This document shows positions 9,067 through 37,261 of a stretch of 64,000 bases of DNA, one piece after another. The stretch spans positions 124,001 through 188,000 of the forward strand of contig NZ_VSSS01000014.1 of assembly GCF_008123425.1 (NCBI RefSeq), given 5' to 3'. Below the pieces are notes generated by a model. That model saw nothing but the letters and a program-made list of their open reading frames with translations, did no database searches and was not told the origin of the DNA. Origin of the DNA: Bradyrhizobium rifense. GTDB taxonomy: Bacteria > Pseudomonadota > Alphaproteobacteria > Rhizobiales > Xanthobacteraceae. How positions within the stretch are numbered: the first letter of the stretch is position 1; the number at the start of each line of letters is the position of its first letter. The translations under genes were made by a program, and so were the position numbers.

Positions 9067-9080
9067 CGTTTCACGACACG

Positions 9081-10772: not shown

Positions 10773-13161
10773 TCAATGCGACTCGCCCGCGCCGTGCGGG
10801 CGCAGCAGATTGTTTGTCCAGGCTTCGGCGATGTGGGGCAGGGAGAGAGCTGGCTTTTGGTCGACGAGAAGCTCGAGCACCCGCGGCGGAGTTAGTGGCA
10901 GCTCCCGGATCGGTTTTCCGATTGCGTTGGCGACGGCACAAGCCACGGCGGCTGCGACATTCAGGATCGGAACTTCGCCGGCGCCCTTCGTTCCGAGCGG
11001 ACCGATCGACGGCGCACCTTCGTACAGATTGATCTCGACCGGCACGACATCGAGGGCCAGCGGCACGCGGTAGGTCTCGAAGCCATTTTGACGGACGCGG
11101 CCATTGCTGCCGATCGTCACTTCCTCATGCAGGGCATAGCCCAATCCTTGCACAACGCCGCCCTGGATTTGGCCATGGATCGCGCGCGGGTTCAGCGCGC
11201 GACCAACGTCCTGGACGACGCGGTAGCTCAACACCTCGACGTGTCCTGTCTCTGTGTCGACGGCGACCTCGCAATCATGGACGGCGAAGACGGGGATGTC
11301 GATCGCGTCGATGAAATGACCGGCGACGCAGCCGGGCATCGCAGGCACACCGGCTCCTGTGAAGGCGCCGGTGCCGGAGATCGGGCCAATCTGCACCTGG
11401 GCGCGGGCCGCAACTTCGGAGATCAGGCGGCCGGAGCCGGGCGCTCCGGCAATTTCAATTCGCCCGGAGCGCATGACCAGATCCTCGGGCGCGGCCTCGA
11501 TCATCTCGGAGGCGACTTTCAGCAGCTTTGCTCGCACCTCTTGCGCCGCCGACAAGCTGGCTGCACCGAGCGAGACAGTGGTTCGGCCGCCTCCGACGCC
11601 GACGTCATAGCCGGCGGCATCCGTGTCGGCTGCGCGGACGATCACGTTGCCAGGGTTCAGGCCGAGCGTGCCGGCCACGATCTGAGGCAGAGCTTGCATC
11701 ATGGAGCCTGACCCGATCTCGACGCCCGATGTCACCAGCGTTGCCGTCCCATCGGCATTCATGTTTACGGTCGCGGCCGAAGGACCGACAAAGACGAACC
11801 ATGTGCCGACAACGGTCGCGCGTCCATGGCGCCGGCCGTCGGCGCGCCCGGGCGGCGTTGCGGCGGCATCACGCATCGTGTCCATTCGCTCGAGCATCGG
11901 GCCAAGCACGTCACCCTCGAACACCTGGCCGGTGGCGCCGAGATCGCCGTCGCCGAGCACGTTGCGGCGGCGGAAGGCGAGGGCATCCATGCCGATCCGG
12001 GCCGCGATTTCGTCGGTGTGCCGCTCGAGCGCAAAGGTGTTGTAGACGCCGTTGCAGGCGCGGAAAGCGCCGTTCGGGGCGGTGTTAGTATAGACCGCGC
12101 GCGAGACCAGCCGCACCGCGCCAAGGGAATAATTTCCGCCGAGCGTGTGAGCGGTCATCGTTGTCAGGAAAGATCTGTTCGCCGCCATATGCGCCGCAAT
12201 CCATCAGGACCACGGCCTCGCGTCCGACGATCTCGCCATCGCGCGTCACCGCCGAGCGTATGCGGATTTCGGCGTTTTCGCGAAAGAGGCAGGTGAGCAT
12301 CTCTTCCTCGCGCGAATTGACCAGCCGGACCGGCCGTCCGCTCGCCCGGGCGAGCAACGCAGCGAACGGCTCGATAGCGAGATCGAATTTGAGGCCGAAA
12401 CCGCCGCCGACGGGCGGCACGGTGACGCGAACCTGGGAAGCCGGCACGCCCAGCAGGCGCGCTGTTGCATTGCGGATGGTCCAGGGAACCTGGGTCGACG
12501 TCTCGATATGGAAGCGCCCGTCTTCATAATTCGCGACCACCGCGCGCGGCTCGAAGGCGACATGGTTCTGGCGGCCGACCCGGAAGCTGCTTTCGATGAT
12601 CTCGACATCGCGCCGGGCAAACGCAGCGTCGACGTCGCCGCGAACAACGGTGGCCTCCCAGGCGACATTGCCTCCGCGGGCACCGCCTTCGAGCAGAACC
12701 TCGTAGTTGCGCCAGTCGGGATGCACGAGCGGAGCGTCCGGAGCAAGCGCATCCGCCATGGTGAGAACCACGGGCAGCGGTTCAATCTCGACGTCAATTC
12801 CAGCAAGCGCGGCGTGAGCCTGCATCAGCGTGTCCGCCGCGATCGCGGCGATCGGCTCGCCGTCGTAGCGGATCACGTCGCGGGCAAAGAGCGGGTGGTC
12901 GGCGATGCCGATCCCGATCATGCCGGGCGCATCGGCGGCGGTCACGACGGCGCGCACACCGGGCATCCGGGCAGCCTTGGTGATGTCGAGACGGGCGATC
13001 CGGCCTGACGGCACGCCGGCGCGCAAAATCGCCGCGTGCAGCATGCCGGGCAGGTAGCGATCGATGGTGTAGCGCGTGCGGCCGCGCAGCTTGTCCGCCG
13101 CGTCGCGACGCGCAAAGTTCATGGTTGCGGAGGCGTTGGACACTTTTGCGTCTCCCGTCAT
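10773..13161 (-). pseudogene. Xanthine-dehydrogenase-family molybdopterin subunit, frameshifted
   Basis: Two overlapping frames encode one large-subunit homologue of about 760 residues. The first (13161 to about 12170) has DKLRGRTRYTIDRYLPGMLH, substrate-channel motif VPPVGGGFGLK and reaches DCGAYGGEQIF. It then runs out of frame. The second (from about 12188 to 10773) resumes with FLTTMTAHTLGGNYS, followed by NGAFRACN and the catalytic-glutamate motif GTKGAGEVP. Removing one T from the minus-strand run CTTTCC (AAA on plus, 12169-12171) restores a continuous reading frame. The gene overlaps the [2Fe-2S] gene by ATGA. A truncated product would lack the molybdenum site. A sequencing error at the homopolymer is the main alternative. 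Confidence 0.85.
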
Positions 13162-13622
13162 GTCGTCGCAAGCGCAAGCAGTGCGGCTTCGATGATGCGT
13201 TCATATCCGGTGCAACGGCAGATGTTGCCCGTCAGAGCGGCACGAATATCGTCGCGCGTTGCCTCGGGGCGGGTTGTGACGAGATGCGTCAGGCTCACCA
13301 CCATGCCGGGAAAGCACATGCCGCATTGGACCGCGTCGCAGGCCTCGAGCGCGACCTGGATCGGGTTCAATCCGCCATTGACGGCAAGACCCTCGACGGT
13401 GCGGATATCGCAGGCCTCGGCGAGCGCGGCCGGCATCAGGCACGACGGGGTGGGCTTGCCGTCGATCAACACCATGCAGGCGCCGCAAAAGCCCTCGCGA
13501 CACACCGGCTTTGCGCCTGTCAGATGGAATTCCTCGCGCAGGATATCGATGAGAGGCGTGATGGGATCGGCAGTGGAGGTGAGGTGATCGCCGTTGACGG
13601 TCAGGCTAAGGCCCATGTTCAT
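13158..13622 (-). CDS. [2Fe-2S]-binding small subunit of a molybdenum hydroxylase
   Basis: A 154-residue ferredoxin-like subunit of the CoxS/XdhA class. It has the plant-type cluster motif CREGFCGACMVLIDGKP plus a later C, and the helical-domain cluster motif CGMCFPGMV followed by GNICRCTGYERI. Electrons pass from the molybdenum centre through these two clusters to the FAD subunit. The start at 13622 (MNMGLSLTVNGD) is chosen because longer frames extend into the preceding FAD gene. It follows that gene by 10 bp. It overlaps the large-subunit gene by four bases, so the three are one operon. Confidence 0.92.
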   Translation of the reverse strand: MNMGLSLTVNGDHLTSTADPITPLIDILREEFHLTGAKPVCREGFCGACMVLIDGKPTPSCLMPAALAEACDIRTVEGLAVNGGLNPIQVALEACDAVQCGMCFPGMVVSLTHLVTTRPEATRDDIRAALTGNICRCTGYERIIEAALLALATT

Positions 13623-13632
13623 CCCCGACGGT

Positions 13633-14487
13633 TCAAGAGCCGAGCGCGGCGGCGGCACGGCGGACGAGGCCGGGCAGGACGCGCACCCGGTACCAGGCAG
13701 GCACGTCGGCACTGTCGCGACCCGTAAATTCACCGGCTAGTCCCGCCGCTGCGTCCGCAGCCTTCGTCGCATTCAGCTTATGTCCGACAAGAGCGTCCTC
13801 GAGGCGCTCCCATCGGCGCGCGACCGGCTCGACTGAACCCACGGAAACACGTGCCGACTGAACATGTCCGGCATCGTCAAGGCTCACGGCAAGACTGACG
13901 ATGGCGGTTGGATAATCTCCGGCCTGTCGCAGCGGCAGGCGGGCGTGAGCGGTCTTGCGACCGCGCCGAGGTACGATGATGCGTTGGAGCAGCCACCCGG
14001 GTGCAAGCGTCGATCTCATTGTCAGAAATTGCTCAAGATCGATCCGCTCCCGGCCGCCTCGGCTTGCGATCTCGACTTCGGCCGCGAGGCAGAGCAGCGC
14101 GGGCACGCAATCAGCCGCGGCAAATGCTGTCGTTGCGAGGTTGCCGCCGATGGTCGCCATCCCGCGGATAGCAGGATTGGCGGAGCGGCCGGCTGCCGCC
14201 GTGAGCACGTCAAACTCCGACAGCTCCGCCAGCGCTGTGGCGAGCGCGGCGTGCGTGACCGCCGCGCCGATCTCGACCACATCGGTATCGACCTTGATCG
14301 CATGGAGCTCTGGAATTTTCCCGATTGCGACGTAACGGGACTTGAGCGGCTCGTGCCGGATTGGGGCGCGCATGATCCAGGTGCCGCCGGCGAAAGGCGC
14401 GGCTTCAGAGCCGGCTTCGTCGAGCGCATCGAGCGCCGCCGGCAGCGAGGGGGCGACGTAGACCGATCCCGAGGTGGGTGTATCCAT
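13633..14487 (-). CDS. FAD-binding medium subunit of a molybdenum hydroxylase
   Basis: About 284 residues of the CoxM/XdhB class. The FAD pyrophosphate-loop motif PFAGGTWIM and the TIGGNLATTAFAAAD motif are both present, with a C-terminal CO-dehydrogenase flavoprotein domain. The start at 14487 (MDTPTSGSVYVAP) is preferred over 14529, which would overlap the hydantoinase gene. It completes the L-M-S set with the small subunit and the frameshifted large subunit. The complex would hydroxylate an N-heterocycle or aldehyde in the cytoplasm. Linkage to HyuA/HyuB suggests a ring substrate oxidised before ring opening. Confidence 0.9.
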   Translation of the reverse strand: MDTPTSGSVYVAPSLPAALDALDEAGSEAAPFAGGTWIMRAPIRHEPLKSRYVAIGKIPELHAIKVDTDVVEIGAAVTHAALATALAELSEFDVLTAAAGRSANPAIRGMATIGGNLATTAFAAADCVPALLCLAAEVEIASRGGRERIDLEQFLTMRSTLAPGWLLQRIIVPRRGRKTAHARLPLRQAGDYPTAIVSLAVSLDDAGHVQSARVSVGSVEPVARRWERLEDALVGHKLNATKAADAAAGLAGEFTGRDSADVPAWYRVRVLPGLVRRAAAALGS

Positions 14488-14513
14488 GGTGTCGGAGCTC
14501 CCGGTTCGATCGG

Positions 14514-16475
14514 TCAGCCTGTGCTCCACTTCGCCACCGAGCGCCGTTCGAACACCTCGCGAAACTGACTTGTGGATTTTGGAAGCAGGGCGCCGGTGCC
14601 CCAGTCGAGGATCACAGCATGCTGGCGGATCACATCGAGCACGCCGATCGCGCCATTGCGATAATTTTCCGCCACGATCTCGGGATCGAGCCGCACATTG
14701 GCGACACGCTCGGCCCTGATTTTGGCGCGAAGCGCCGCGGTCGCGGCCTTGTCGACCTCATATTCGCACAGCTCGGAGTCAACGGTATGTACGACAACGC
14801 CATAATCCTTCGCAGCGCGCTCAACAGAGACATAGTCGTCCTTGATGTCCTCGATCACGAGGGCCGGGTCGCGTTCGAGCGGATCACCGAACCCGCCGCC
14901 GCCGGCTGTCGGGCGCGAGAAGATATCGCCTTCACCGATCGGGACATCCGAGAAGATCGAGCCGAGCCGCTCTTCGGCTTGGCCGCCGGCACGCGTCAAC
15001 GTCAGCCCGTGCGGCATCGACGGCAAGCCGCCCTCGATGCCCCACACCACCGCGCGCTCGCGGTCGCAGATGTAGGAAATCACGGTCTTCTCGGCTTGTA
15101 GCATGCGGGAGGTTTTCACGACCCCGGCGCCGCCGCGCCATTTGCCCGGACCGGGCGAGTCCTTGAGGATTTCGCATTCCGTGGTCAGGATCGGATTGGC
15201 GCGCTCCTGGCCTTCGACCGGTTGCGACATCAGGCCGGTGCCGAAGCAAGCCGTCGTGACATTGCTGCCGTCCTTGCCGTTGCGTCCGCCCCAGCCGCCT
15301 GGCAACCAGTCGTAGAACATGAAGATGGGCTTGTCCGGGCTGCGGGCGTCGAGGCCGCCGGTGAGCAGGTATTCGAGATTGAAGGCGCAGGCGAGCGCAC
15401 GCTCCGGCATCAGCTTTGACCACATCTCGTAGATCGAGTTCATGATCTTCTCGAACGGCATCAGGAAGCCGGTGACGGCGATCGGCCATTTGGCATCGAC
15501 GATCGAGCCTTCCGGCGCGATGATTTCAAAGCAGCGGTAGAATCCGGAATTGAGCGGGAGATCGGGGAAGAAAGTCTTCATGCCGGCTGCAACGGCCGAG
15601 AAGGTCGTGCCGAAGGCCGAGTTGTAGATCGAACCGATGGTCGGATGGCTGCCGGTGAAGTCGTAAATCGCGCGGTCGCCTTTGATCGTCAGCTTGATGC
15701 GGATCGGGATCATGCCTTCGCCGCCGGCGGGATCACGGTCGATGAAGTCGACCGTCTCCCATTCGCCATCGGGCAGGGCCGCGATACGTTGGCGCACCGA
15801 ACGTTCGACATAGTCCTGCACGGCGGCAAGGCCGGTCTCGACCGTGTCCCGACCATATTTGTTGACGAGGCGCAGGATCTCGCGCTCGCAGACCTGGGTG
15901 GCCTGGGACTGCGCCTGGATATCGCCGATGATCGAGACCGGGTCGCGCGTATTCGAGGCGACCAGATGCGCGACGTCCTTGCAAAAGCGACCCTTGTCGA
16001 ACAGGCGTATCGGTGTGATGCGCAGCCCCTCGCGGAACATCTCGCGTGCGGCGACGTCGAATGAACCCGGCACGCTGCCGCCGACATCCGACCAATGGCC
16101 GTTCGACTGGCTGAAGGCGATGATCTTGCCGTCGGCGAAGATCGGTCGGATCAGGCGGACATCCGGGAAGTGCGTGCCGCCGGCGTAGGGGTCGTTGATG
16201 GCGAAGACGTCGCCCTCATGCATGTCACCGTCGAAGAAGCGCATGACGTCCTTGCAGGTGAAATGCAACGTGCCGACATGGACGGCGATGTCCTGATTGC
16301 CTTGCGCGGCGCATTCGCCGTGGGCGTCATGCAGGGCGCTCGAAAAATCGCGGTTGTAGATGACGAAGGAGTAGCAGGTCCGAAGCACCTGCTCGCCCAT
16401 CTGGTCGACGCTGGTGATGAAGGAGTTCTTGAGAACCTCGAAGGTCACGGGGTCGAGCGGGAGATCTCCGGCCAT
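14514..16475 (-). CDS. hyuB: Hydantoinase B/oxoprolinase family subunit
   Basis: A 653-residue HyuB homologue. It starts with DPVTFEVLKNSFITSVDQMGEQVLRT and contains SALHDAHGECAAQGNQDIAVH and INDPYAGGTHFPDVRL, signature segments of the family. With HyuA it forms an ATP-dependent ring-opening amidohydrolase acting on hydantoins, 5-oxoproline or related cyclic amides. In some relatives the pair is an acetone or acetophenone carboxylase subunit set. It follows hyuA by 3 bp on the same strand, and the length is full for the family. Confidence 0.9.
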   Translation of the reverse strand: MAGDLPLDPVTFEVLKNSFITSVDQMGEQVLRTCYSFVIYNRDFSSALHDAHGECAAQGNQDIAVHVGTLHFTCKDVMRFFDGDMHEGDVFAINDPYAGGTHFPDVRLIRPIFADGKIIAFSQSNGHWSDVGGSVPGSFDVAAREMFREGLRITPIRLFDKGRFCKDVAHLVASNTRDPVSIIGDIQAQSQATQVCEREILRLVNKYGRDTVETGLAAVQDYVERSVRQRIAALPDGEWETVDFIDRDPAGGEGMIPIRIKLTIKGDRAIYDFTGSHPTIGSIYNSAFGTTFSAVAAGMKTFFPDLPLNSGFYRCFEIIAPEGSIVDAKWPIAVTGFLMPFEKIMNSIYEMWSKLMPERALACAFNLEYLLTGGLDARSPDKPIFMFYDWLPGGWGGRNGKDGSNVTTACFGTGLMSQPVEGQERANPILTTECEILKDSPGPGKWRGGAGVVKTSRMLQAEKTVISYICDRERAVVWGIEGGLPSMPHGLTLTRAGGQAEERLGSIFSDVPIGEGDIFSRPTAGGGGFGDPLERDPALVIEDIKDDYVSVERAAKDYGVVVHTVDSELCEYEVDKAATAALRAKIRAERVANVRLDPEIVAENYRNGAIGVLDVIRQHAVILDWGTGALLPKSTSQFREVFERRSVAKWSTG

Positions 16476-19748: not shown

Positions 19749-20714
19749 TCAGATTCCGATGGCCTCGTCCGATCGTTGCCGGTGGTCGATGCCGACCGGA
19801 GGACGTGCCGGACCAACGCCCGCCACGGCAAAGCGCATGAAGTCGCGATACGCCTTCGCGGCCTCGGAAAATTGGGTGTCACGGCGCCAGGCCAGTCCAA
19901 CGTCCATGCTGGGCACTTCGTTCTCGATGACGCGGGTCTCGATCCTCTGGCCCTCGAGCGACCAGGGCCGGTAGACGAGATCGGACAGGATCGTAATGCC
20001 CATTCCGCCCGCAACCATGGACCGGACGGCTTCGACGGAGGAGGTGCGGAAGATCGTTCGCGGTTCGAGCGACAAGGCGTTCCAGTAGCGCATCGACGTG
20101 TGGCTGGCTTCGTCGACGGTGAGCATGACGTAAGGGTAGGTCGCGATCTCGGCGAGATGGACGCGCTCGGCGCGTGTCAGGGGATGATCGGCAGCAAGCC
20201 ACAACCGGCGCGGCGACCGCAACAGCGTCTCGCTCGCAAGCATGGCATTGTTGTGCAGGTTCGAGACCAGCATGACCGCAAGATCGAGTGCACCGTCGAC
20301 GACGGCGCGTTCGAGCACGTCACGCGGCGCCTCGTACAGTTCGACCGTGATTCCGGGAAAGCTCGCCTGGAAGCGCATCTGATGGCGCGGCAGAAAATAG
20401 CCGGAAACGGTATAGGTGACGCCGATGCGCACCGTTCCGAACAGCGGGCCGGCAGATATATGCGTCCCGCGGACGGCTTCGGCGACCGAAGCAAGGATCT
20501 GGCGCCCTTGCGACAGGAACCGGCTGCCCTCCATGGTGACGGTCACGCCGGTCGGCGTGCGTTCCAGCAGGCGGGCACAGACGATGGCTTCGAGTTGCTG
20601 GATCGCGGCGGTGACCGCGGATTGCGAGACATTCAGGTCGATGGCCGCCTGGCTGATACGTCCAGTTTCCGCGGCGGCGACGAAATAGCGGATTTGTTTC
20701 AGAGAAACGGACAT
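19749..20714 (-). CDS. LysR-family transcriptional regulator
   Basis: A 321-residue LysR protein. The N-terminal winged helix reads KQIRYFVAAAETGRISQAAIDLNVSQSAVTAAIQQLEA, and a type-2 periplasmic-binding-like effector domain follows from about residue 90. It sits between the AraC gene and the pxpC-pxpA operon, all in one direction. LysR genes usually act on neighbours, so control of the oxoprolinase-like or Liv-type transport operon is likely. The cognate promoter was not identified. Confidence 0.88.
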   Translation of the reverse strand: MSVSLKQIRYFVAAAETGRISQAAIDLNVSQSAVTAAIQQLEAIVCARLLERTPTGVTVTMEGSRFLSQGRQILASVAEAVRGTHISAGPLFGTVRIGVTYTVSGYFLPRHQMRFQASFPGITVELYEAPRDVLERAVVDGALDLAVMLVSNLHNNAMLASETLLRSPRRLWLAADHPLTRAERVHLAEIATYPYVMLTVDEASHTSMRYWNALSLEPRTIFRTSSVEAVRSMVAGGMGITILSDLVYRPWSLEGQRIETRVIENEVPSMDVGLAWRRDTQFSEAAKAYRDFMRFAVAGVGPARPPVGIDHRQRSDEAIGI

Positions 20715-20941: not shown

Positions 20942-21919
20942 CTACGCCAAAGCACCGCGAAGCTTGCCCAGCAACCCGGCCCGGCTCTTGCGCGCCGCAA
21001 GAGCCTCATCCATCCCGACCTTGACGAACTTCACCGGCGTGTTGGGCTGGAGCTGGCCGATCAAATCCATGTCCGCTGCGATGACCGTGCCGACCATGAA
21101 ATAGCCGCCGCCCGAGACCGCGTCACGGTGCAGCACGATCGGCTCAGTGCCGCCGGGGACCTGGATCGATCCGTAGGGGTAGCAGGCATCGGTGATGTTG
21201 GAGGGGTCGGAACCGGCCCCGAAGGGCGGCTCGCGCGGCACGAATTCGAGCGGCTTGCCGCCCTTGAAGCGGTAGCCGATCCGGTCAGCTTCCGGCGCGA
21301 CCTTCCAGGTGTCGCCGAAAAAACCAACGCCGGCCGTCTCGGTGATGCGGTGCCAGTAAAGCCCGGGCATCACGCGCAGTTCCGTCGGCATCCCTGCCGG
21401 CAGGCCGCGCAGCTCCTTCGCGACTATGCGGCCATCCTTGACGGGTGCGCTGGCCTTGCCGATGGGAAGTTCGTCACCGGCCTCGAGCTTCCGGCCCTTG
21501 AAGCCGCCGAGTGCGCCGAGCGCGTAGGTGGAACGCGAGCCCAGAACAAGCGGCACGTCGATGCCGCCAGCGATTGCAATGTAGCCGCGTGCGCCCTGCT
21601 TGAGGAAATCGAAGGAGAGCTTTTGGCCGCGCTTCACCTTGAAGCTCGTCCAGGTCTCGCGCGGCTCGCCATCGAGCTTCGGCGGCAGCTCGGCTCCAGT
21701 GATTGCGACCAGGGCGTCATCGGTGAATTCGAGCTCCGGCCCCATGAACACGGCCTCGAGGACCGCAGCGCCTTCCTCGTTGCCCACGAGCAGGTTTGCA
21801 GCGGCCAGCGCGTGACGGTCCATGCCGCCGGAGAGCGGGATGCCGATGTGATAGTAGCCGGGACGCCCCAGGTCCTGCACGGTTGTAGCAAGGCCGGGCT
21901 TCAAGACTTTAATTGCCAT
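20942..21919 (-). CDS. pxpC: 5-oxoprolinase subunit C homologue / biotin-dependent carboxyltransferase family
   Basis: A 325-residue KipA/PxpC protein. It starts MAIKVLKPGLATTVQDLGR with the family motif GRPGYYHIGIPLSGGMDRHAL, and has VLHRDAVSGGGYFMVG near the end. The fold is the same as the carboxyltransferase half of urea carboxylase. In PxpABC it helps split 5-oxoproline with ATP. Here it overlaps pxpB by 11 bp, and a biotin carboxylase and biotin carrier lie between pxpB and pxpA. It could therefore instead be the acceptor-side carboxyltransferase of a split biotin enzyme. Confidence 0.85.
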   Translation of the reverse strand: MAIKVLKPGLATTVQDLGRPGYYHIGIPLSGGMDRHALAAANLLVGNEEGAAVLEAVFMGPELEFTDDALVAITGAELPPKLDGEPRETWTSFKVKRGQKLSFDFLKQGARGYIAIAGGIDVPLVLGSRSTYALGALGGFKGRKLEAGDELPIGKASAPVKDGRIVAKELRGLPAGMPTELRVMPGLYWHRITETAGVGFFGDTWKVAPEADRIGYRFKGGKPLEFVPREPPFGAGSDPSNITDACYPYGSIQVPGGTEPIVLHRDAVSGGGYFMVGTVIAADMDLIGQLQPNTPVKFVKVGMDEALAARKSRAGLLGKLRGALA

Positions 21920-22784
21920 GGAGAACCCCCTCGAGCTTGCGATTATAGGCGTCGATGTCGTTGTTGAACTCGGTCAGCGAAAACGAGACATCGCGAATGA
22001 TCGGCGCGAAACGGCCGGCATCGACATCGGCCACGGCAGCGTCATAGGCCGGTCGGTCGATCGGTTTCCATTTCACGATGTCGCCCGGCTTGAACAGGCA
22101 CATGAAGTCGCGCAAATAGCTGATCTTCTGGTTGGGGTCGTAGATCGGCATCGGCGTGATGCCGAACATCTGGTAGCCGCCGGCGCCGCGTACCGAGTAG
22201 ATGCAGCTGAAGCATCCGCCGTGCCCGACGGTGAGCTTCGGCGTGTCCGTGCGCGGGCGCAGATATTTCGGCGCCTGGATCTGCCGCTGGCGTTCCACCA
22301 TCTGGTAGAGGAACGGCAGGCCTGCGACGAAGCCGACCATCGAGACGAACCATGGCGCGCTGGAGTGCGCTTTGATGAAGGCGTCGACCCCGTCGAGCCC
22401 GTTGATGCGCGCAGCATATTCGAGATCGGTGCCGTTCGGATCCTGATGGCGCTCCCGGAAGCGCATCAGGGTCTCGTGCGTCCAGGGGTCATTGTAGAGC
22501 ACGGGGATTTCGATGATCCGCGTCTTGATGACCGGTGCGGATGTTTCAGATGCGGAATCCAGCTGTTTCAGCTCTGCAAGCAGGTCGTCGGGCTTGATCT
22601 GATCCGGATCGAACTTGACCTGATAGGACGCGTTGGCCGGACAGATCTCGGTCACGCCCTTGATCCTGGCGTCGCGCACCGCATTGGTGACGAACAGGCC
22701 CTTGAAGAAGGCCTCCAATGACATGGACTCAGCGACCTCGGCGAAGATGTGCTCATCGCCGCCGTAGGAAAATCGGGTTTGCAT
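21909..22784 (-). CDS. pxpB: 5-oxoprolinase subunit B homologue / allophanate-hydrolase subunit 1 family
   Basis: A 291-residue KipI/PxpB protein. The C-terminal half has the diagnostic HSSAPWFVSMVGFVAGLPFL and GHGGCFSCIYSVRGAGGYQMFGI-like regions, with an N-terminal extension longer than classic PxpB (about 220 residues). It works as a heteromer with PxpC. It lies 43 bp downstream of the biotin carboxylase gene on the same strand. The extra length resembles family members paired with biotin carboxylases rather than the minimal oxoprolinase. Confidence 0.85.
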   Translation of the reverse strand: MQTRFSYGGDEHIFAEVAESMSLEAFFKGLFVTNAVRDARIKGVTEICPANASYQVKFDPDQIKPDDLLAELKQLDSASETSAPVIKTRIIEIPVLYNDPWTHETLMRFRERHQDPNGTDLEYAARINGLDGVDAFIKAHSSAPWFVSMVGFVAGLPFLYQMVERQRQIQAPKYLRPRTDTPKLTVGHGGCFSCIYSVRGAGGYQMFGITPMPIYDPNQKISYLRDFMCLFKPGDIVKWKPIDRPAYDAAVADVDAGRFAPIIRDVSFSLTEFNNDIDAYNRKLEGVLHGN

Positions 22785-22827
22785 GACTAGCGGCCTCCTG
22801 TTGCTGGCGGGGCGGGTTCTCTCGCGG

Positions 22828-24228
22828 TCATTGCGCGACCTTGGCGGTCGGCGATGGCGCTACGGTGCCGAGCGAGGCCGCATGGGTTTCCAGCCATGGC
22901 TCGAGCCAGGCTGTATGAAAGCGTGCGGCCTGAACGTCGGGATCGCGCGCGAGCGCCTGGTGCAGGGTTTTTGTCGTCGCCAGGCCCTCGACGCTGAGCT
23001 CGGCAAGTGCGCGCTGGAGCCGCCGGATCGCGCTTGGCCTGTCCTTGTCGTGCACGATCAGCTTGCCGAGCAGGCTGTCGTAGAACGGCGGCACCGTGTA
23101 GCCCTGATAGAGCATGCTGTCGAAGCGCACGCCTTCACCGGCAGGCACGCTGAGCGCGCTGATTGTGCCGGGGCTTGGGAGAAAGCCTTTTGCAGGATCC
23201 TCGGCGTTGATGCGGACTTCGATCGAATGACCGCGGACGCGAACCTGATCCTGGCGGATGCGAAGCGGCTCGCCGCCGGCAATCCGGATCATTTCGCACA
23301 CGAGGTCGATGCCGGTGACCATCTCGGTGACGGGATGCTCGACCTGGATGCGCGTGTTCATCTCCAGGAAGTAGAATTCGTGGCTGCGGTCGTCATAGAG
23401 ATATTCCAGCGTTCCGGCGCCGCGATAGTCGACGGCCCTGGCGAGCGCGACCGCCGACGAACACAGTCTGTCACGAACGGCCGGTGCCAACGAGGGCGAG
23501 GGAGCTTCCTCCCAGACCTTCTGGCGGCGTCGCTGCAGCGAGCACTCGCGCTCGAAGCAATGGATGACGTCGCGCCCATCGCCGAGGATCTGCACCTCAA
23601 TGTGCCGCGCGCCTTCGATCAGCTTCTCGACATAGAGCCCGCCATCGCCGAAAGCGGCGAGTGCTTCCGCCTGTGCCTGCGGCATCAGGTGATGGAATTC
23701 CTCGGCGGAACGTGCGATGCGGATGCCGCGTCCGCCACCGCCGGCCGCGGCCTTGATCATCACGGGAAAGCCGGTCTTTTCGACCAGTGCGAAGGCTGCG
23801 TCGGCAGAATCCAGCCGTCCAGCGCTGCCGGGGACGGTCGGCACGCCGGCCGCAGCCGCAGCCTCCCGGGCCGCGACCTTGTCACCCATCAGCCTGATCG
23901 ATTGCGCCGTCGGGCCGACGAAGATCAGTCCGGCTGCCTCGACGGCGGCTGCAAATTCGGCGTTCTCGGCCAGGAAGCCGTAGCCGGGATGAATGGCGTC
24001 GGCGCCGGTCGTTCTGGCGGCGGCGAGGATCGTCGCCTGGTTGAGATATGACTTTGAAGCCTGCGGCGGACCGATCTCGATCGACTCGTCGGCAAGCCTG
24101 ACGGCCAGCGAGTCCTTGTCGGCCTTGCTGTAGACCTGGACGGTCGCGATGCCGAGTTCGCGCGCCGCACGAATGATGCGGACGGCGATCTCGCCGCGAT
24201 TGGCGATGAGGAGCTTCTGGATCGTCAT
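22828..24228 (-). CDS. Biotin carboxylase (AccC-like) subunit
   Basis: A 466-residue biotin carboxylase. It starts MTIQKLLIANRGEIAVRI. The ATP-grasp glycine loop AAAGGGGRGIRI, HIEVQILGDGRDVIHCFERECS, the QRRRQKVWEEAPSP region and MNTRIQVEHPVTEMVTGIDLV are all intact. The start at 24228 is chosen because the longer frame from 24264 would overlap the carrier gene. It carboxylates biotin on the small carrier encoded just upstream. Its association with PxpA/PxpB/PxpC rather than AccA/AccD shows that its carboxyl acceptor is not acetyl-CoA. Confidence 0.92.
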   Translation of the reverse strand: MTIQKLLIANRGEIAVRIIRAARELGIATVQVYSKADKDSLAVRLADESIEIGPPQASKSYLNQATILAAARTTGADAIHPGYGFLAENAEFAAAVEAAGLIFVGPTAQSIRLMGDKVAAREAAAAAGVPTVPGSAGRLDSADAAFALVEKTGFPVMIKAAAGGGGRGIRIARSAEEFHHLMPQAQAEALAAFGDGGLYVEKLIEGARHIEVQILGDGRDVIHCFERECSLQRRRQKVWEEAPSPSLAPAVRDRLCSSAVALARAVDYRGAGTLEYLYDDRSHEFYFLEMNTRIQVEHPVTEMVTGIDLVCEMIRIAGGEPLRIRQDQVRVRGHSIEVRINAEDPAKGFLPSPGTISALSVPAGEGVRFDSMLYQGYTVPPFYDSLLGKLIVHDKDRPSAIRRLQRALAELSVEGLATTKTLHQALARDPDVQAARFHTAWLEPWLETHAASLGTVAPSPTAKVAQ

Positions 24229-24244
24229 GGACGCGCGAACCGTC

Positions 24245-24487
24245 TCAAACGTCAATCTCGGCAATTGGCTGGCCGGCCATCACGGCCTCCTCGTTCTCGG
24301 CCAGGAAACGCAGGATCTTGCCCGCCGCGCCAGCCTTCACCTCGTTGAATGATTTCATCACCTCGATGAGCCCGATCGTGTCGTGCTCCGTGATCGTGTC
24401 TCCGTCGGACTTGTAGTCCGGCTTGTCGGGCGCGGGCTTGCGATAGAATATGCCCGGCAGCGGCGAGAATATCTGCTGTGTTGCCAT
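24245..24487 (-). CDS. Minimal biotin carboxyl carrier protein
   Basis: An 80-residue biotinyl domain with little else. It has FSPLPGIFYRKPAPDKP, TITEHDTIGLIEVMKSFNEV and GKILRFLAENEEAVMAGQPI. The attachment lysine is K45 within EVMKS. The usual AMKM motif is changed to VMKS, but the beta-turn lysine after methionine is kept. It lies between pxpA and the biotin carboxylase gene on the same strand, within an operon. Full-length AccB carriers are about 150 residues, so this one is a stripped carrier, as in split urea-carboxylase-like systems. Confidence 0.9.
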   Translation of the reverse strand: MATQQIFSPLPGIFYRKPAPDKPDYKSDGDTITEHDTIGLIEVMKSFNEVKAGAAGKILRFLAENEEAVMAGQPIAEIDV

Positions 24488-24523
24488 GAGGTCCTCCTGG
24501 TCGTTCGTTTCTTCGGGCCGTTC

Positions 24524-25252
24524 TCACCGGGCGGTGAGATAGGGGCGGACGGCCTCGCGAACGGCGTGCGCGATCGCGACGGCATTGGGGGTGTCGGAGT
24601 GGATGCAGATCGAGTCGGCGCCGACCAGCACGTCGTTTCCGGCCACCGACCGGGTCTTGCCTTCATTCACGGCTCGGGTGCACCGCGACGCCGCATCGGC
24701 CGGATCCTTGGCCTCGTGCTCGCGCGTGATGATGAGGCTGCCGTCGGCATTGTAGTCGAGGTCGGCGTAGTATTCGGCGACGAAGGTGTGGCCGCGCCGC
24801 TCGTAGACCATCTGATGCAGCGTACCTTTCATGCCGAGGAGCGGTACCTTGTAGACGTCAGCGGCATCCGCGACGGCCTCCGCGATGTTCTCGCTGCGTG
24901 CGGCCATGCCATAGAGGGCACCGTGCGGCTTGATGTGATTGAGCGGCAGGCCCTCGGCATCCAGGAATGCCTTGAGCGCGCCGATCTGATAAAGCAGGCA
25001 ATTCGTCAACTCCTCGCGGTCGATCTTCATCTCCCGCCGTCCAAAACCCTGCAAGTCCGGGAGTGACGGATGGGCGCCGACCTTGACGCCGAATTGCTTG
25101 GCGAGCTGCACCGTTTTCCGCATGTGATTGAAGTCGGACGCATGGAAGCCGCAAGCCACGTTGGCGACATCGATGTGGGGCATCAGAGCCTTGTCGTCGC
25201 CCATCTTGTAGAGGCCATAGGCCTCGCCCATGTCGCAATTAATCACGACCAT
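24524..25252 (-). CDS. pxpA: 5-oxoprolinase subunit A homologue (LamB/YcsF family)
   Basis: A 242-residue LamB/YcsF protein with MVVINCDMGEAYG at the N-terminus, VACGFHASDFNHM, KVGAHPSLPDLQGFGRREM and NHIKPHGALYG. The start at 25252 follows CAGGAGA; an upstream extension has no support. PxpA is the cytoplasmic TIM-barrel-like partner of PxpBC in 5-oxoproline hydrolysis. First gene of the run pxpA-BCCP-biotin carboxylase-pxpB-pxpC. It follows the Liv-type transporter genes after a stem-loop, which makes import then ring opening of a lactam a reasonable inference. Confidence 0.88.
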   Translation of the reverse strand: MVVINCDMGEAYGLYKMGDDKALMPHIDVANVACGFHASDFNHMRKTVQLAKQFGVKVGAHPSLPDLQGFGRREMKIDREELTNCLLYQIGALKAFLDAEGLPLNHIKPHGALYGMAARSENIAEAVADAADVYKVPLLGMKGTLHQMVYERRGHTFVAEYYADLDYNADGSLIITREHEAKDPADAASRCTRAVNEGKTRSVAGNDVLVGADSICIHSDTPNAVAIAHAVREAVRPYLTAR

Positions 25253-25342: not shown

Positions 25343-26536
25343 TTACTTCGACACCAGATAGTCGACCGGGATCTTCTCCGAGATCGTCCACTGATCGACC
25401 ATCTTCGGCTTGCCGGCCTCGGTGTCGATGATCAGGTAGCGGCCCTGGTTCTGATGGTGGATGTCCTTGTTGAAGGTACGCGGCCCGAACAGCGTAGCCT
25501 CGCTGTTCATCTTTTCCAGTTCCGCGACGACAGCCGGAGCATCGGTGGTCTTGGCACGCTCGACCGCCTTGGCCCAGACGTCGATCAGGACATAGCCGGG
25601 ATAGACGTACTGGCTGGACGGATCGCCACCCGTCACGTCCTTGTACTTCTTGTTGAACTCGTTGACCTTCGGATTGGGATCGTCGCCGTAGATCGAGCCC
25701 TGCACCGGAACGTAGAAATTCGACAGATCCGGAATGGCGTTCAGCCAGTAGCTGCCGTCCATGCTGGAGCCGTTGAGGATCATCGATTTGATGCCGGCGG
25801 CCCGGATCTGCTTGATAGCCGAAACCGCGCCCGGCATCATGGTGCAGACCATGATGGCGTCGGGCTCCTTCGGCAGGCTCTTGATGCGCGTGATCTGGGA
25901 CGCGATCGAAGCGTCATCATTCTTGAAGGTGTCGCTTCCGGCCAGCGTCGCGTCCTTCAGCTTCGGCATCATCCAGTCGAAGCCATCGCAGATACCCTTG
26001 TTGTAGACGGTCCAGCTGTCGAGCAGCCGGTAGAAGCTGCGGGCATTCTTCTTGTTGTAGGCCCATTCCGCCATGGTCGCGCCCTGCACGGCCGCCAGAA
26101 CGGAGCCGGAGAACGAGTAGGGACCGACGCCGGGGATGCCCGCCTTGATCGATTCGGCACAGAGGAAGAACGAGACCTTGCCGGCCGCTTGCGCCTGGAG
26201 CGCTGCCGGCGCGCCGAAATCGTAATCGCAGGAGACGACCACGAGATCCGCGCCCTGGTCGAGCACGGCGAGGCCGGCCTTCGCGCCTTCAGCCTGATCG
26301 GTCTTGGTATCGGCAAAAACCGCCTTGATCTTCTTGCCGAGCAAGCCGCCCGCCTTGTTGATCTCGTCGATGCGGATCATGGCCGCATCTTGTGCCGGCT
26401 TGTCATAAGCCTGCATGAAGCCTGACGCTGCGGTCGCAAATCCGATGACGATCTCGTCGGCTGCTTTGGCCGGTGTGAACCAGAGTGCGGACACTCCAGT
26501 CAGGATGCCCAGTATTCTCGTAAGACGCATAACCAT
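25343..26536 (-). CDS. ABC transporter periplasmic substrate-binding protein (LivK-like, type 1 fold)
   Basis: A 397-residue binding protein with a Sec signal in residues 1-25 (ILGILTGVSALWFTPAKA) and the type 1 periplasmic-binding fold (IDEINKAGGLLGKKIKAVFAD). It belongs to the branched-chain amino-acid/amide (HAAT) group. It is the last gene of the livG-livF-livH-livM-livK run and is followed by pxpA. The ligand is inferred to be an amide, lactam or hydantoin-like compound from the neighbours. Sequence alone does not exclude an amino acid. Confidence 0.88.
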   Translation of the reverse strand: MVMRLTRILGILTGVSALWFTPAKAADEIVIGFATAASGFMQAYDKPAQDAAMIRIDEINKAGGLLGKKIKAVFADTKTDQAEGAKAGLAVLDQGADLVVVSCDYDFGAPAALQAQAAGKVSFFLCAESIKAGIPGVGPYSFSGSVLAAVQGATMAEWAYNKKNARSFYRLLDSWTVYNKGICDGFDWMMPKLKDATLAGSDTFKNDDASIASQITRIKSLPKEPDAIMVCTMMPGAVSAIKQIRAAGIKSMILNGSSMDGSYWLNAIPDLSNFYVPVQGSIYGDDPNPKVNEFNKKYKDVTGGDPSSQYVYPGYVLIDVWAKAVERAKTTDAPAVVAELEKMNSEATLFGPRTFNKDIHHQNQGRYLIIDTEAGKPKMVDQWTISEKIPVDYLVSK

Positions 26537-26558: not shown

Positions 26559-27632
26559 TCAGTTCAGTTCCTTCATCGCGGTCCGCACCGGGCGTGACAA
26601 ACGTCGCAGCATCGGCCAGCCGCGCCAGGAGAACTCCTGGTTGCGGGTGAGGCCGGTCGGCAGGTACATCAGGATGACGATGGTGATGATGCCGATCGCG
26701 ATCTCCTGGACCCCGTTCGGCAGTGCGACCTTGAGTGCGCCAAGGCTGATGCCCTTCTCGAGGTTGCGGAACAATTCGATCAGCACCGAGATCGTGACGA
26801 CGCCGGTGACGGCGCCGCTGAGGCTGTACATGCCGCCGACGACCAGCATCGACAGGGTGATGAAGGTCGTCCGCAGATAGAAGGCACCGGGGTTGACGAT
26901 GCTCAGGAAGTGCGCGTAGAGCGCACCGGCGATGCCGATGATGAACGCGCTGACCACGAACGCGATCAGCCGTTCGCGGACAATATCGATGCCCGAGGCG
27001 CTGGCGGCAACGGACTCATCGCGTGTGGCGCGAAGCGCGAGCCCGGAGCGGGAAATCGCGTAGAGATAGGCGATCACGATCGCAACTGCGGCACCCAGCC
27101 AGCCGATCCATACGTTCATGGTTGGCGGTATGCCGACGATCGAACCTTGTCCGCCTGTGACCGAATCCCAGTTCGAATAGACGTTGTTGACGACGCCGAG
27201 CAGTCCGAAGGTCGCGATCGAAGCTGCAATTCCAGACAGGCGCATGATGACGCGCCCGACGATGAGCGCGAACAGGGCGGCGAACACGCCCGAAATGGGT
27301 GTGGCGACCCACATCGGCAGTTGCGTGTGCAGCAGCCACGCGGGCAGTCCCTTGAGCGTGATCGACTTCATCACGGGCGGAATCGCGAGCCATGCGGTCA
27401 TGTAGGCGCCGAGGCACATAAAGCTGATGTGACCGAACGACAGCAGGCCCGAATTGCCGACAAAGACGTAGAGGCCGACGACCACCATGATGTTGATGAA
27501 CATCTCGACGGCAGTTCGGTTGAACGCGCGGGTGCCGAACTGGTAGCTCAGGGCGGCCATGACGAGCAGCACGACGATCAGGACGATCGGTGTCAGCATC
27601 GTTTGCCGGATGACAGACGGCCGCTTTGACAT
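26559..27632 (-). CDS. ABC transporter permease (LivM-like)
   Basis: A 357-residue polytopic membrane protein with about nine hydrophobic segments. The LivM landmark GNSGLLSFGHISFMCLGAYM is followed later by ISRSGLALRATRDESVAASASGID, the EAA-like loop that contacts the ATPases, and SMLVVGGMYSLSGAVTG. It forms the inner-membrane channel with the LivH-like permease, whose gene is 3 bp upstream. Confidence 0.9.
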   Translation of the reverse strand: MSKRPSVIRQTMLTPIVLIVVLLVMAALSYQFGTRAFNRTAVEMFINIMVVVGLYVFVGNSGLLSFGHISFMCLGAYMTAWLAIPPVMKSITLKGLPAWLLHTQLPMWVATPISGVFAALFALIVGRVIMRLSGIAASIATFGLLGVVNNVYSNWDSVTGGQGSIVGIPPTMNVWIGWLGAAVAIVIAYLYAISRSGLALRATRDESVAASASGIDIVRERLIAFVVSAFIIGIAGALYAHFLSIVNPGAFYLRTTFITLSMLVVGGMYSLSGAVTGVVTISVLIELFRNLEKGISLGALKVALPNGVQEIAIGIITIVILMYLPTGLTRNQEFSWRGWPMLRRLSRPVRTAMKELN

Positions 27633-27635
27633 CGA

Positions 27636-28556
27636 TCAGACCCTCTGCTTGGCGGATTTCGGTGCAAACAGGCCTTGCGGCCGCACCAGAAGGACGACGA
27701 TCACCGCGCCATAGACGAAAGCATCGCGAAAGACGCGCGCGTCGTGCGGCAATGTTGCCTGGAAGACGACGCTGGCCGCGCCAATGATGAAGCCCCCGGC
27801 GACGGCGCCGGGTACGCTGCCGAGACCGCCGATCACCGTGGCAATGAAGGCGATCAGCATGACATTGGCGCCCATGTTGATGTCGGCGGTGCCGGAGATG
27901 GTGGCCAGGATCAATCCGATCGCCGCGGCCAGCATGCCGCTGATGGCAAAGGCCAGCAGGATGACGCCGTTGGCACGGACGCCAAGCATGCGTGCCATGG
28001 TGAAGTTTTCGGCCGCAGCGCGCATCTCGAGGCCATAGCGCGTGCGCTTGAGGAATAGCACCAGCACAGCGAGCGCGGCCAGCGTGATGACGATGGTCAC
28101 GACTTGGAGCATCGGGATGTGGGCGCCGAGAAAATCAACCGGGAGGCCGAGGCTTGGCCACAGCGTGATCGACTTCGGTCGGCTCGAATAGAGCATCAGC
28201 ATCAAGTGCCGAATGACGAATCCAAGGGCGAAGGACGCGATCATCATCGTCGCCGGATTGGTGTTGCGGAAACGGCGGAATACGACGATCTCCGACAGGA
28301 TCGACAGTGCCGCGCCGATCATCAGCAAGAGTGGAATCAGGAGATAGAACGGCAGCATGCCGGCAAATACGACTGCCGTTGCATCGATCGACGGCCATAG
28401 CATTGCGAACACGCAGAAGGCGATGAAGTCGCCATGGGCGAAGTTGACGAGCCGCATGACGCCGAAGATCAGCGCGATGCCGAGCGCGCCCAGGGCATAG
28501 AGACTGCCGAGGCTCAGTGCGTCGAAGATGATCTGCAGAACCGCCGTCATTCTCAA
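27636..28556 (-). CDS. ABC transporter permease (LivH-like)
   Basis: A 306-residue permease with the LivH landmarks LGSLYALGALGIALIFGVM and MRLVNFAHGDFIAFC near the N-terminus. RTRYGLEMRAAAENFTMARMLGV is the cytoplasmic coupling loop and FIATVIGGLGSVPGAVAGG lies near the C-terminus. It overlaps the livF-like gene by four bases, so the two are translationally coupled. Confidence 0.9.
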   Translation of the reverse strand: MRMTAVLQIIFDALSLGSLYALGALGIALIFGVMRLVNFAHGDFIAFCVFAMLWPSIDATAVVFAGMLPFYLLIPLLLMIGAALSILSEIVVFRRFRNTNPATMMIASFALGFVIRHLMLMLYSSRPKSITLWPSLGLPVDFLGAHIPMLQVVTIVITLAALAVLVLFLKRTRYGLEMRAAAENFTMARMLGVRANGVILLAFAISGMLAAAIGLILATISGTADINMGANVMLIAFIATVIGGLGSVPGAVAGGFIIGAASVVFQATLPHDARVFRDAFVYGAVIVVLLVRPQGLFAPKSAKQRV

Positions 28557-29275
28557 TGGTCTCCGAAGCCGAAATAGGCCTGCTTCAGACGTTCGTCCTT
28601 GATCATGTCGGCGGCGGCGCCCTCGAGGACGATACGGCCGCCGCGGATCAGGATCATGCGTCCGCCGGTCATCATGGCGCGCGTCGAGCTCTGCTCGACG
28701 ATCAGCAGCGTCAGCTTGCGCTGCGCCCGTAGCCGCACGAGGATCTCGTAAACCTGATCGATGATCTTGGGTGCAAGCCCCAGCGAAGGCTCGTCGATGG
28801 CCATGATGCGCGGAGCCGTCATCAACGCACGGCCGATGACGAGCATCTGCTGCTGACCTCCGGATAGCATGCCGGCCGCAGTGTGACGGCGATCGGCCAG
28901 CATCGGAAATTCGGCGTAGACGGATTCGAGGTCGCCGGCGATCTTGTGCCTGTCGGCCCGCATGCCGGTGCCGACCTTGAGATTTTCCTCGATGCTCAGT
29001 GCGCCGAAGACGTTGCGTCCTTCCGGCACCAGCGAAAATCCCCGCCGGGCGATGTCCTCCGGCGAGGCGCCCGTCACTTTCGCACCGTCCATGGTGATGG
29101 AGCCCGAGCCCGCCGGCACGACGCCGGCGATCGCGTTCAGCAGGGTCGACTTGCCTGCGCCGTTGGGGCCTGTCACGAACAGAACCTCGCCTTCGGCGAT
29201 CTTCAGCGTGACGCCGCGCAAGGCCGTGAGGCGCCCGTAGCTTACGGTGATGTCGTCGACGGCGAGCAGCGTCAT
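28553..29275 (-). CDS. ABC transporter ATP-binding protein (LivF-like)
   Basis: A 240-residue ABC ATPase. Walker A is GPNGAGKST, the signature is MLSGGQQQMLVIGRALM and Walker B is MAIDEPSLGLAPK, the hallmark LivF form. It has ATG/stop overlaps with both neighbours (29272-29275 and 28553-28556). It energises the same importer as the LivG-like subunit. Confidence 0.92.
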   Translation of the reverse strand: MTLLAVDDITVSYGRLTALRGVTLKIAEGEVLFVTGPNGAGKSTLLNAIAGVVPAGSGSITMDGAKVTGASPEDIARRGFSLVPEGRNVFGALSIEENLKVGTGMRADRHKIAGDLESVYAEFPMLADRRHTAAGMLSGGQQQMLVIGRALMTAPRIMAIDEPSLGLAPKIIDQVYEILVRLRAQRKLTLLIVEQSSTRAMMTGGRMILIRGGRIVLEGAAADMIKDERLKQAYFGFGDH

Positions 29276-30048
29276 GATGCAGCGCCCATCTCGGCCGCGA
29301 GCGCCGGAATCACTTCGTCGCGCTGCGTGCCCATATAGGCGTGCCGGACCGCGTCGCTGTCGCGGATCTGCGCAGGCGCGCCGACTTCGATGATCTCGCC
29401 GGAATCGAGCACGAAGATGCGCTCGCAGAGTTCGAGCACAAGGCCGATGTTGTGCTCGATCAGCAGCACGCCGACGCCGAGTTCGCCGGCGATCCGCCGG
29501 ATGATGACGGCTAGGTCGTGGCTTTCATGCTCGGACATGCCGGCCGCAGGTTCGTCGAGCAGCAGATAGCGCGGCGTGCACATGATGGCGCGGCCGATAG
29601 CGACGCGGCGCTCGTCGGTGTAGGGCAGGGCGCCAGCGATCGTACTGCCGAGGTGCGATATGCCAAGCCAGGTCATCACGCGCTCGGCCTCCGTGATCGC
29701 CTCGCGCCGCGTCTGGCCCATCCCCACGCCCGTGACCTCGAGATTGTCCACGACCGGCAGGTCGCGGAAAAGTCGGCCGGACTGAAACGTGCGCGCGACA
29801 CCCTTGCGTCGCAACTTGTGGGCCGCGATGCCGTTGAGCACCTCGCCTTCCAGATCGACGGTCCCTGTGCCGACCGGCTGGAACCCTGTCAGCACGTTGA
29901 TAAGTGTCGTCTTCCCGGCGCCGTTGGGGCCGATCAGTCCCGTGATGCGTCCCCGCGGTACTGTAAGCGTAACTTTGGACAGCGCTTTCAAGCCTTCGAA
30001 TTGGACGCTGACGTCGCGAGCGCCCAACTCCAAGCCACCGGAAGTCAT
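29272..30048 (-). CDS. ABC transporter ATP-binding protein (LivG-like)
   Basis: A 258-residue ABC ATPase and first gene of the importer operon. Walker A is GPNGAGKTT and Walker B is YLLLDEPAAGMSEHE. The signature region reads ALPYTDERRVAIGRAI, a divergent form of the usual YGxQRxxEIARAL, but typical of some LivG subfamilies. IRIAGELGVGVLLIEHN follows. The upstream region (30049-30140) includes an inverted repeat ATATCG/CGATAT at 30121-30137 that could be an operator. Confidence 0.9.
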   Translation of the reverse strand: MTSGGLELGARDVSVQFEGLKALSKVTLTVPRGRITGLIGPNGAGKTTLINVLTGFQPVGTGTVDLEGEVLNGIAAHKLRRKGVARTFQSGRLFRDLPVVDNLEVTGVGMGQTRREAITEAERVMTWLGISHLGSTIAGALPYTDERRVAIGRAIMCTPRYLLLDEPAAGMSEHESHDLAVIIRRIAGELGVGVLLIEHNIGLVLELCERIFVLDSGEIIEVGAPAQIRDSDAVRHAYMGTQRDEVIPALAAEMGAAS

Positions 30049-32475: not shown

Positions 32476-32485
32476 GAGAAGCAAA

Positions 32486-33727: not shown

Positions 33728-33759
33728 CCCGGCGGCTGATCGCTCCGGCCCTCCGGGCA

Positions 33760-33788
33760 CGCCCCGGCGTTGCCGGCGGGCCGGGGCG
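33760..33788 (+). terminator. Stem-loop between the binding-protein gene and the permease genes
   Basis: A perfect 9-bp GC stem (CGCCCCGGC at 33760-33768, GCCGGGGCG at 33780-33788) lies 32 bp after the binding-protein stop. No T-run follows, so partial attenuation or message stabilisation is more likely than full termination. That allows binding protein to exceed permease. Confidence 0.6.
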
Positions 33789-33841
33789 ATCACGGACATC
33801 TGCGGCGGTGACGCCGCGTCTTCCTACAGACTGGTTGGTTC

Positions 33842-34714: not shown

Positions 34715-34729
34715 CGGAGTGATGGCGTC

Positions 34730-37231: not shown

Positions 37232-37261
37232 AAGCGACGCCTATAACCAAGGAGAACAGCA

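Follow-up and report, generated by a model that had tools for sequence, protein, structure and literature searches.

The stretch of DNA analysed here, referred to as the window, comprises 64,000 nucleotides of Bradyrhizobium rifense (contig NZ_VSSS01000014.1, positions 124,001 to 188,000), and the locus of interest occupies positions 20942–25252 on its minus strand. Five contiguous open reading frames (ORFs) were found there, encoding in order a PxpA/LamB_YcsF protein, a biotin carrier, a biotin carboxylase (BC) and two carboxyltransferase (CT) chains, CT_C_D and CT_A_B. The PxpA protein, a proposed ring-opening hydrolase of 242 residues (24524..25252), matches LamB_YcsF at 9.8e-90 and the model NF003814 with 272 bits against a cut-off of 226; its frame can start at the ATG at 25252, which is also where a preliminary description of this DNA had placed the end of the locus. 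The carrier (24245..24487) is exactly 80 residues long and matches Biotin_lipoyl at 3.6e-12 and NF005457 with 113.5 bits (cut-off 87), K45 of the motif EVMKSF (codon 24353..24355) being predicted by alignment as the biotinyl lysine. The BC subunit (22828..24228; NF009471, 782.5 bits against 686; domains Biotin_carb_N, CPSase_L_D2 and Biotin_carb_C) has 466 residues when read from the ATG at 24228, the most likely start in an open frame that extends to 24264. The PxpB-like CT_C_D subunit (21909..22784, 291 residues) matches CT_C_D at 3e-39 and urea carboxylase 3va7 at E 7e-15, and the PxpC-like CT_A_B subunit (20942..21919, 325 residues; CT_A_B, 1e-86) contains an insert of the urea-carboxylase type. 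There is an 11-base overlap between the two CT genes, and the other intergenic gaps are 16, 36 and 43 bases. The architecture is confirmed as real and not a product of chance, and all five ORFs match the families named in the preliminary description, which had proposed that the modules of urea carboxylase are all rebuilt here as separate chains and joined by PxpA. The model of single-chain urea carboxylase, TIGR02712, gave partial matches of 528, 233, 110 and 18 bits against 1303.85, the genes being separate. No carboxyltransferase of the AccA/AccD type was found at the locus, both CT chains matching only CT_A_B or CT_C_D in Pfam.

The spread of the set was followed by scanning GTDB genomes with a CT_C_D alignment, with confirmation by tblastn (E ≤ 1e-3). 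At least 581 GTDB stretches encode some relative of CT_C_D, and the best 80 of these were examined; the closest protein among the matches listed, at 98% identity, is from Bradyrhizobium campsiandrae. At E ≤ 1e-20, 90 plasmid records matched CT_C_D, including those of Alphaproteobacteria, the betaproteobacterium Diaphorobacter, haloarchaea, Paenarthrobacter, Rubrobacter and Thermomicrobium. On the Paenarthrobacter plasmid pYJN5-2 (locus L128), pxpA, a glutamine-synthetase-like gene and an aminotransferase gene each occur twice. The search of 385 alphaproteobacterial genomes gave matches at E ≤ 1e-40 in 25, of which 20 showed 67–100% identity (own genome included) and five 33–37%. From these counts and the plasmid and GTDB matches the set is common but patchy, and by no means rare. 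The carrier model NF005457 was not used for measuring spread, because it has matches in 246 of 249 genomes and exceeds its cut-off in only 30.

A sample of 99 loci, designated type I, was assembled from the window, 80 loci of the GTDB scan, 14 plasmid loci and four from the genome search. All were found via CT_C_D except two found via the carrier (L202 and L203); the Thermomicrobium locus (L044) is counted in, and the CT_C_D sequence is identical in two of the loci. The exact order PxpA–carrier–BC–CT_C_D–CT_A_B on one strand was present in 83 of the 99. In seven further loci only BC and the two CT genes were found, with just 0.3–1.1 kb of sequence upstream of the CT gene. When the count was confined to the 86 fully flanked loci, i.e. 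those with at least 5.8 kb either side of the midpoint of the CT_C_D frame, CT_A_B was present in all 86, PxpA and the carrier in 85 each and BC in 82. Likewise, when the six genomes with the highest-ranking carrier matches were inspected, five had the CT pair beside the carrier.

The assignment of the CT chains was examined with family models and by residue comparison. The preliminary description had called the CT_C_D chain PxpB, a label that proved wrong: the chain scores 74.6 bits on the PxpB model TIGR00370 (cut-off 145.55) and higher, 110 bits, on the urea carboxylase model, and it carries a lysine where PxpB has an arginine. As a control, four of four ordinary PxpB proteins passed the PxpB model (164–356 bits), with urea-carboxylase scores ranging from none to 28. 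The CT_A_B chain gave 233 bits on the urea carboxylase model versus 225 (225.4) on the PxpC model, and three other PxpC proteins scored lower on the former (114 and 171 for those of the same genome, 167 for that of E. coli). The cut-off of the PxpC model NF045499 (500 bits), missed by the window protein, was considered as further evidence and withdrawn, as it does not discriminate: the two ordinary PxpC proteins of the same genome miss it too (218 and 290 bits), and only the E. coli protein passes (592).

In the CT domain of Kluyveromyces lactis urea amidolyase (KlUA), Lys1605 is the likely general base and the K1605A exchange is severely inhibiting, according to the available text of PMC5770610. 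The aligned residue of the window chain is K173 (codon 22266..22268). Among 152 CT_C_D sequences compared (98 type I, Thermomicrobium, 16 urea carboxylases and 37 others from 36 loci), this position is lysine in 98/98 type I chains, in Thermomicrobium and in 16/16 urea carboxylases, and arginine in 37/37 others, E. coli PxpB included; a more distant subgroup, Ib (L219–L225; 33–37% identity), has PKY in 8/8 rows. When positions were required to be shared by ≥90% of type I and urea carboxylase and ≤5% of the other group, ten were found in CT_C_D (Q55, D99, R112, P116, N128, V153, R165, K173, Y174 and Y204) and seven in CT_A_B (R229, A235, G236, S240, D244, Y247 and S269), several of which fall within stretches absent from ordinary Pxp proteins. 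The reverse pattern, common to type I and ordinary Pxp but absent from urea carboxylase, was seen at four positions (Y97 and G234; Q253 and Y273). A fold search with the AlphaFold model of CT_A_B (pLDDT 73.7) matched only chains of this CT family at E < 0.001 (15 chains), without separating PxpC from urea carboxylase. The residues thus bear out the kinship with the urea carboxylase CT part noted in the preliminary description and, on the models and alignments used, the CT chains are of the urea-carboxylase branch, not PxpB proper.

As to the biotin-related parts, 91/91 type I carriers found retain the MK-motif lysine. At 13 catalytic positions of BC, whose numbering we take to follow E. coli AccC, the window protein agrees with AccC at 12; the exception is position 236, where H is replaced by R (urea carboxylase has N), and among 90 aligned relatives the exceptions were again position 236 together with a few gaps or single changes. 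By alignment, the carrier lysine and the catalytic residues of BC are intact, and biotinylation of the carrier is predicted. A gene for the biotin transporter BioY lies within 5.8 kb in 14/86 fully flanked type I loci, versus 0/19 pxp loci without BC and 0/8 arginine-type loci with BC; it directly follows CT_A_B on the same strand in seven of the ten BioY loci drawn, and two representatives passed the Pfam BioY model. In Acidiphilium, bioB follows the cluster. The window's own genome has a single BioY gene in 9.95 Mb, located away from the five-gene locus.

The history of the parts was studied in trees of the CT, PxpA and BC proteins. The careful CT tree held 85 rows, its type I rows being a hand-picked spread (28 of 98), and five long-branch ordinary PxpB rows (L138, L140, L190, L194 and L200) were left out of it and kept in a quick tree. 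Urea carboxylases, type I, Ib and Thermomicrobium form one side of a branch with 100/99 support, so that type I CT stands in one clade with urea carboxylase against PxpB, outside the fused enzymes. The split Thermomicrobium protein groups with the fused urea carboxylases (99/97), and split type I and Ib are the sister of this group (97/86). When ordinary PxpB is chosen as outgroup, the fused enzyme falls within the split, PxpA-linked systems, and a single fusion would be the simplest history. Some genomes of subgroup Ib contain several CT pairs; in G515 there are four CT_C_D matches, two of which adjoin each other. In L221 and L222 the CT genes are accompanied by BC, PxpA and a carrier resembling that of urea carboxylase, and other Ib loci have genes for amidase, HyuA/HyuB or an aminotransferase nearby.

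In the PxpA tree, the type I and Ib proteins form a group that includes L204 (SH-aLRT 92) and is separate from ordinary PxpA; the window protein has the residues conserved across 128 PxpA rows and falls in a subclade with type I PxpAs. L204 is labelled "RBC" in this tree although its PxpA, carrier, LysR and HyuAB genes (3955-12237) resemble those of type I loci; its BC frame is only 711 bases long and no CT gene comes after it, as in a broken or rearranged copy. In the BC tree, 21 sampled proteobacterial BCs form one clade (99), and the two haloarchaeal loci sampled have a BC from another lineage beside CT genes of type I; by their placement in the trees, the partners are of different sources in the same combination. 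Ib groups with urea carboxylase in the BC tree (95) and type I BC stands elsewhere; modules have thus been exchanged.

Genes recurring around the set were compared as a guide to the substrate, the clusters being named from scanned representatives or, for L130, from record annotation. HyuA-type genes were found in 42/99 type I loci (about 28 genera) and HyuB-type genes likewise in 42/99 (31 from a CapB-like cluster and 11 of the type seen in the window), with HyuA and HyuB together in 40; HyuA was on the CT strand in 37/37 of the 42 loci where the CT gene was also called. Within 5.8 kb, HyuA was present in 33/86 type I loci versus 0/19 pxp loci without BC and 0/8 arginine-type loci with BC; the window's genome has three HyuA genes in its 9.95 Mb. 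The caprolactamase models, applied to one representative each, were passed by both (L087, alpha, 1243 against 1000 bits; L062, beta, 1106 against 1000). Class III aminotransferases fall into two clusters, each represented in five loci; aldehyde dehydrogenase and glutamine-synthetase-like genes were seen in three loci each, and large subunits of molybdenum hydroxylases in eight and in five loci. In Ruegeria TM1040, genes for GABA transaminase and succinate-semialdehyde dehydrogenase lie close to the set. Conversely, allophanate hydrolase (AtzF), present in 11/16 urea-carboxylase loci (293–1324 bits), gave weak matches (98–154 bits) in 4/99 type I loci, and UAAP1 and UAAP2, each present in 14/16 urea-carboxylase loci, were found in 0/99. 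The near-absence of these genes, together with the HyuA-type and aminotransferase neighbours, argues against plain urea use, and the neighbours point to lactams or cyclic amides as the likely substrates; the published literature searched did not narrow the substrate further. In Agrobacterium rubi (L131, 11934-19844), the cluster is followed by genes of F420 biosynthesis (cofC, cofD, cofE, cofH and npdG) and gabT.

As judged from sequence, all modules are present, intact and co-conserved, with CT chains of the urea-carboxylase type; from this we infer the assembly of the subunits, biotinylation of the carrier, N-carboxylation, the role of PxpA and a lactam as substrate. With moderate confidence, the locus is read as encoding a biotin-dependent, split-subunit carboxylase of the urea-carboxylase branch that, together with the PxpA hydrolase, would constitute an ATP-dependent cyclic amidase. 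In the proposed mechanism, the BC subunit would use ATP and bicarbonate to carboxylate the biotin on carrier Lys45, and the carrier would bring the carboxybiotin to the CT_C_D/CT_A_B pair, where, with Lys173 as general base, the carboxyl group would be transferred to the ring nitrogen of the substrate, a lactam or another cyclic amide. The resulting N-carboxy amide, imide-like as allophanate is, would be hydrolysed by PxpA, and the N-carboxy amino acid so formed would lose CO2 spontaneously to give an omega-amino acid for transamination. The sequence of events would parallel the conversion of urea via allophanate, with PxpA in the hydrolase role.

Several observations weigh against this reading. 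The set is incomplete in some loci: neither BC nor carrier was found within 10 kb in Paenarthrobacter (L128), L057 and L127 have no BC match, L127 having no PxpA match either, and accC is about 9 kb distant in Thermomicrobium (L044). The sixth of the best-carrier genomes (L204) has PxpA, carrier, HyuAB and a partial BC frame, with no CT gene in the following 5.3 kb. CT_C_D P201 is common to urea carboxylase and ordinary PxpB and is not shared by type I, and the AlphaFold model of the CT_C_D chain, computed from a close alignment, was poor (pLDDT 61.5). Moreover, 11/36 arginine-type PxpB loci also lie beside a BC; consequently, the lysine alone is no mark of biotin use, and the linkage to biotin seems to have arisen or persisted in more than one lineage. 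These loci are the chief reason for caution in taking the lysine as the only mark of carboxyl transfer. As to the substrate, the window HyuA is not CapA (484 bits against a cut-off of 1000). Since the HyuA/B families themselves comprise lactam hydrolases, they may account for the lactam context, and the five-gene enzyme could act on another step. Finally, no HyuA cluster member was found in 57/99 loci within the sequence stretches compared.

One rival reading is a biotin carboxylase for a non-cyclic amide or ureide, or for a different step in the pathway. Such a step might, for example, precede or follow the action of HyuAB/CapAB on a ring containing two amide bonds, or come once a molybdenum hydroxylase has formed the lactam. 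The frequent co-occurrence of HyuAB and molybdenum hydroxylase genes with the set speaks for it, as do the varied transporters, which suggest varied substrates. We nevertheless consider it unlikely, as a LamB/YcsF partner, whose known role is lactam opening, is present in 85/86 fully flanked loci, and no HyuA cluster member lies in the stretches compared at 57/99 loci. Less likely still is a split urea carboxylase, in which urea would be converted to allophanate and PxpA or another amidase would replace allophanate hydrolase. The CT residues and clade are those of urea carboxylase, the adjacent substrate-binding protein gives a weak match of UrtA type (51 bits against a cut-off of 493), and a gene of the formamidase family is located some 7 kb past the transporter genes; however, the distribution of AtzF, UAAP1 and UAAP2 described above weighs against it, and the characterised PxpABC acts on a lactam, 5-oxoproline, according to the accessible part of PMC13274462. 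A plain phosphorylating 5-oxoprolinase PxpABC that merely shares its operon with a spare BC and carrier of acetyl-CoA carboxylase, as the database names (PxpA, acetyl-CoA carboxylase) would have it and as the available text on the printed S. aureus operon pxpBC, accBC, pxpA reads its separate functions, with pxpABC in amino acid metabolism and accBC in fatty acid synthesis (PMC11315280), is very improbable, given that CT_C_D misses the PxpB cut-off which ordinary PxpB proteins pass, has K in place of R and groups with urea carboxylase, that PxpA groups with other type I PxpAs and the set stays together in 83/99 loci, that BC comes from a different lineage in the two haloarchaeal loci, and that the same genome has a separate pxpABC set without BC (L008).

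More tentatively, and at somewhat less than an even chance, the type I loci may represent widespread biotin-dependent "lactam carboxylases", in which N-carboxylation would replace phosphorylation before ring opening by PxpA, the split, PxpA-linked form being ancestral to one-chain urea carboxylase by fusion. Few acceptors of biotin carboxylases are known, urea being the familiar amide-nitrogen acceptor in this branch. If ring nitrogens are carboxylated, this would add to the chemistry for opening stable lactams such as nylon monomers and pyrrolidones. It would also explain a gene set labelled "acetyl-CoA carboxylase" and "5-oxoprolinase" in many genomes, and offer an origin for urea carboxylase. 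The choice of lysine or arginine would then provide a one-residue marker that separates urea-carboxylase-type chains from ordinary PxpB.

Compared with known systems, the five-gene set shares with urea carboxylase (EC 6.3.4.6, TIGR02712; structures KlUC 3va7 and KlUA 5i8i) the BC, the biotin carboxyl carrier, the unusual CT, the general-base lysine and the insert residues, but differs in its separate chains, in having PxpA and not allophanate hydrolase, in lacking UAAP and in its other neighbours. With the prokaryotic 5-oxoprolinase PxpABC (E. coli YbgJKL; the B. subtilis counterparts are presumably KipI, KipA and YcsF) it has in common the PxpA, CT_C_D and CT_A_B families and the adjacency of their genes, whereas E. 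coli pxpABC has no adjoining biotin genes and an arginine at the lysine site, and the CT chains here form a separate clade. In the part of PMC13274462 available, PxpBC is assumed to phosphorylate 5-oxoproline and PxpA to open the ring. Caprolactamase CapAB and OplAB, which also open lactams at the expense of ATP and are represented among the frequent neighbours of the set, belong to the HyuA/HyuB families and use no biotin; CapAB is reported to require bicarbonate, and for OplAB the use of carboxyphosphate is presumed (PMC11033972, as far as its available text goes). Acetyl-CoA carboxylase AccABCD, whose name the genes bear in databases, has a homologous BC and carrier, but the CT here is of the urea-carboxylase family and not AccA/AccD.

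The preliminary description knew of no characterised enzyme with exactly this set; the architecture stands, but its uniqueness does not, as operons with a comparable set of families have been published for S. aureus and P. aeruginosa, with no tested function given in the portions of those papers available. In P. aeruginosa, we take PA0492 to be the LamB/YcsF protein and PA0495 and PA0496 to be PxpB- and PxpC-like. PA0493 and PA0494 of this PA0492–PA0496 region are given as of unknown function in the available text (PMC5521831, PMC6249292). The 11 BC-linked look-alike loci examined here (L009, L139, L173 and others) are, unlike type I, of the arginine type. Paired free-standing CT genes were pointed out by Lombard and Moreira without functional data (PMC3199775), and no experimental study of the five-gene set was recognised in the literature searched. 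The window's own genome holds a second biotin-linked set (L009, contig C61, 6545-13018), with two arginine-type PxpB/PxpC pairs, one PxpA, a BC, an AccB-like carrier with EAMK and a carrier-like protein (9105-9674) without the biotinyl lysine. In L177, L180, L188 and L189, BC and the carrier motif are in one frame beside an arginine-type PxpB; PxpB and PxpC are also in one frame in the first three and separate in L189.

On the minus strand of the window, the five genes are flanked by a LysR-type regulator (19749..20714), whose gene cluster is present in 71/99 loci, and on the other side by a branched-chain/urea-type ABC substrate-binding protein (25343..26536; Peripla_BP_6, 3e-48) with two ABC permeases and two ABC ATPases (26559..30048), ORFs named by inspection; Liv-type clusters recur in relatives. 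HyuA (16479-18506; Hydantoinase_A, 1.2e-77) and HyuB (14514-16475; Hydantoinase_B, 7e-157), subunits of the ATP-dependent hydantoinase/oxoprolinase type, are encoded on the same strand, as are the large, FeS and FAD subunits of a molybdenum hydroxylase (10773..14529), the large one assigned by Pfam and the others from gene clusters and inspection. Such hydroxylase genes are recurrent neighbours, with similar ones in the Thermomicrobium, Diaphorobacter and Rubrobacter records. The large subunit is spread over two overlapping frames (10773-13161) with the break inside MoCoBD_1, suggesting a frameshift or sequencing error. On the plus strand, positions 30587-40005 form a divergent amide or urea-type island with two Peripla_BP_5/6 proteins and an FmdA/AmdA-family gene, together with ABC permeases, an ATPase and a two-domain nitrilase-like ORF, these latter named by inspection.

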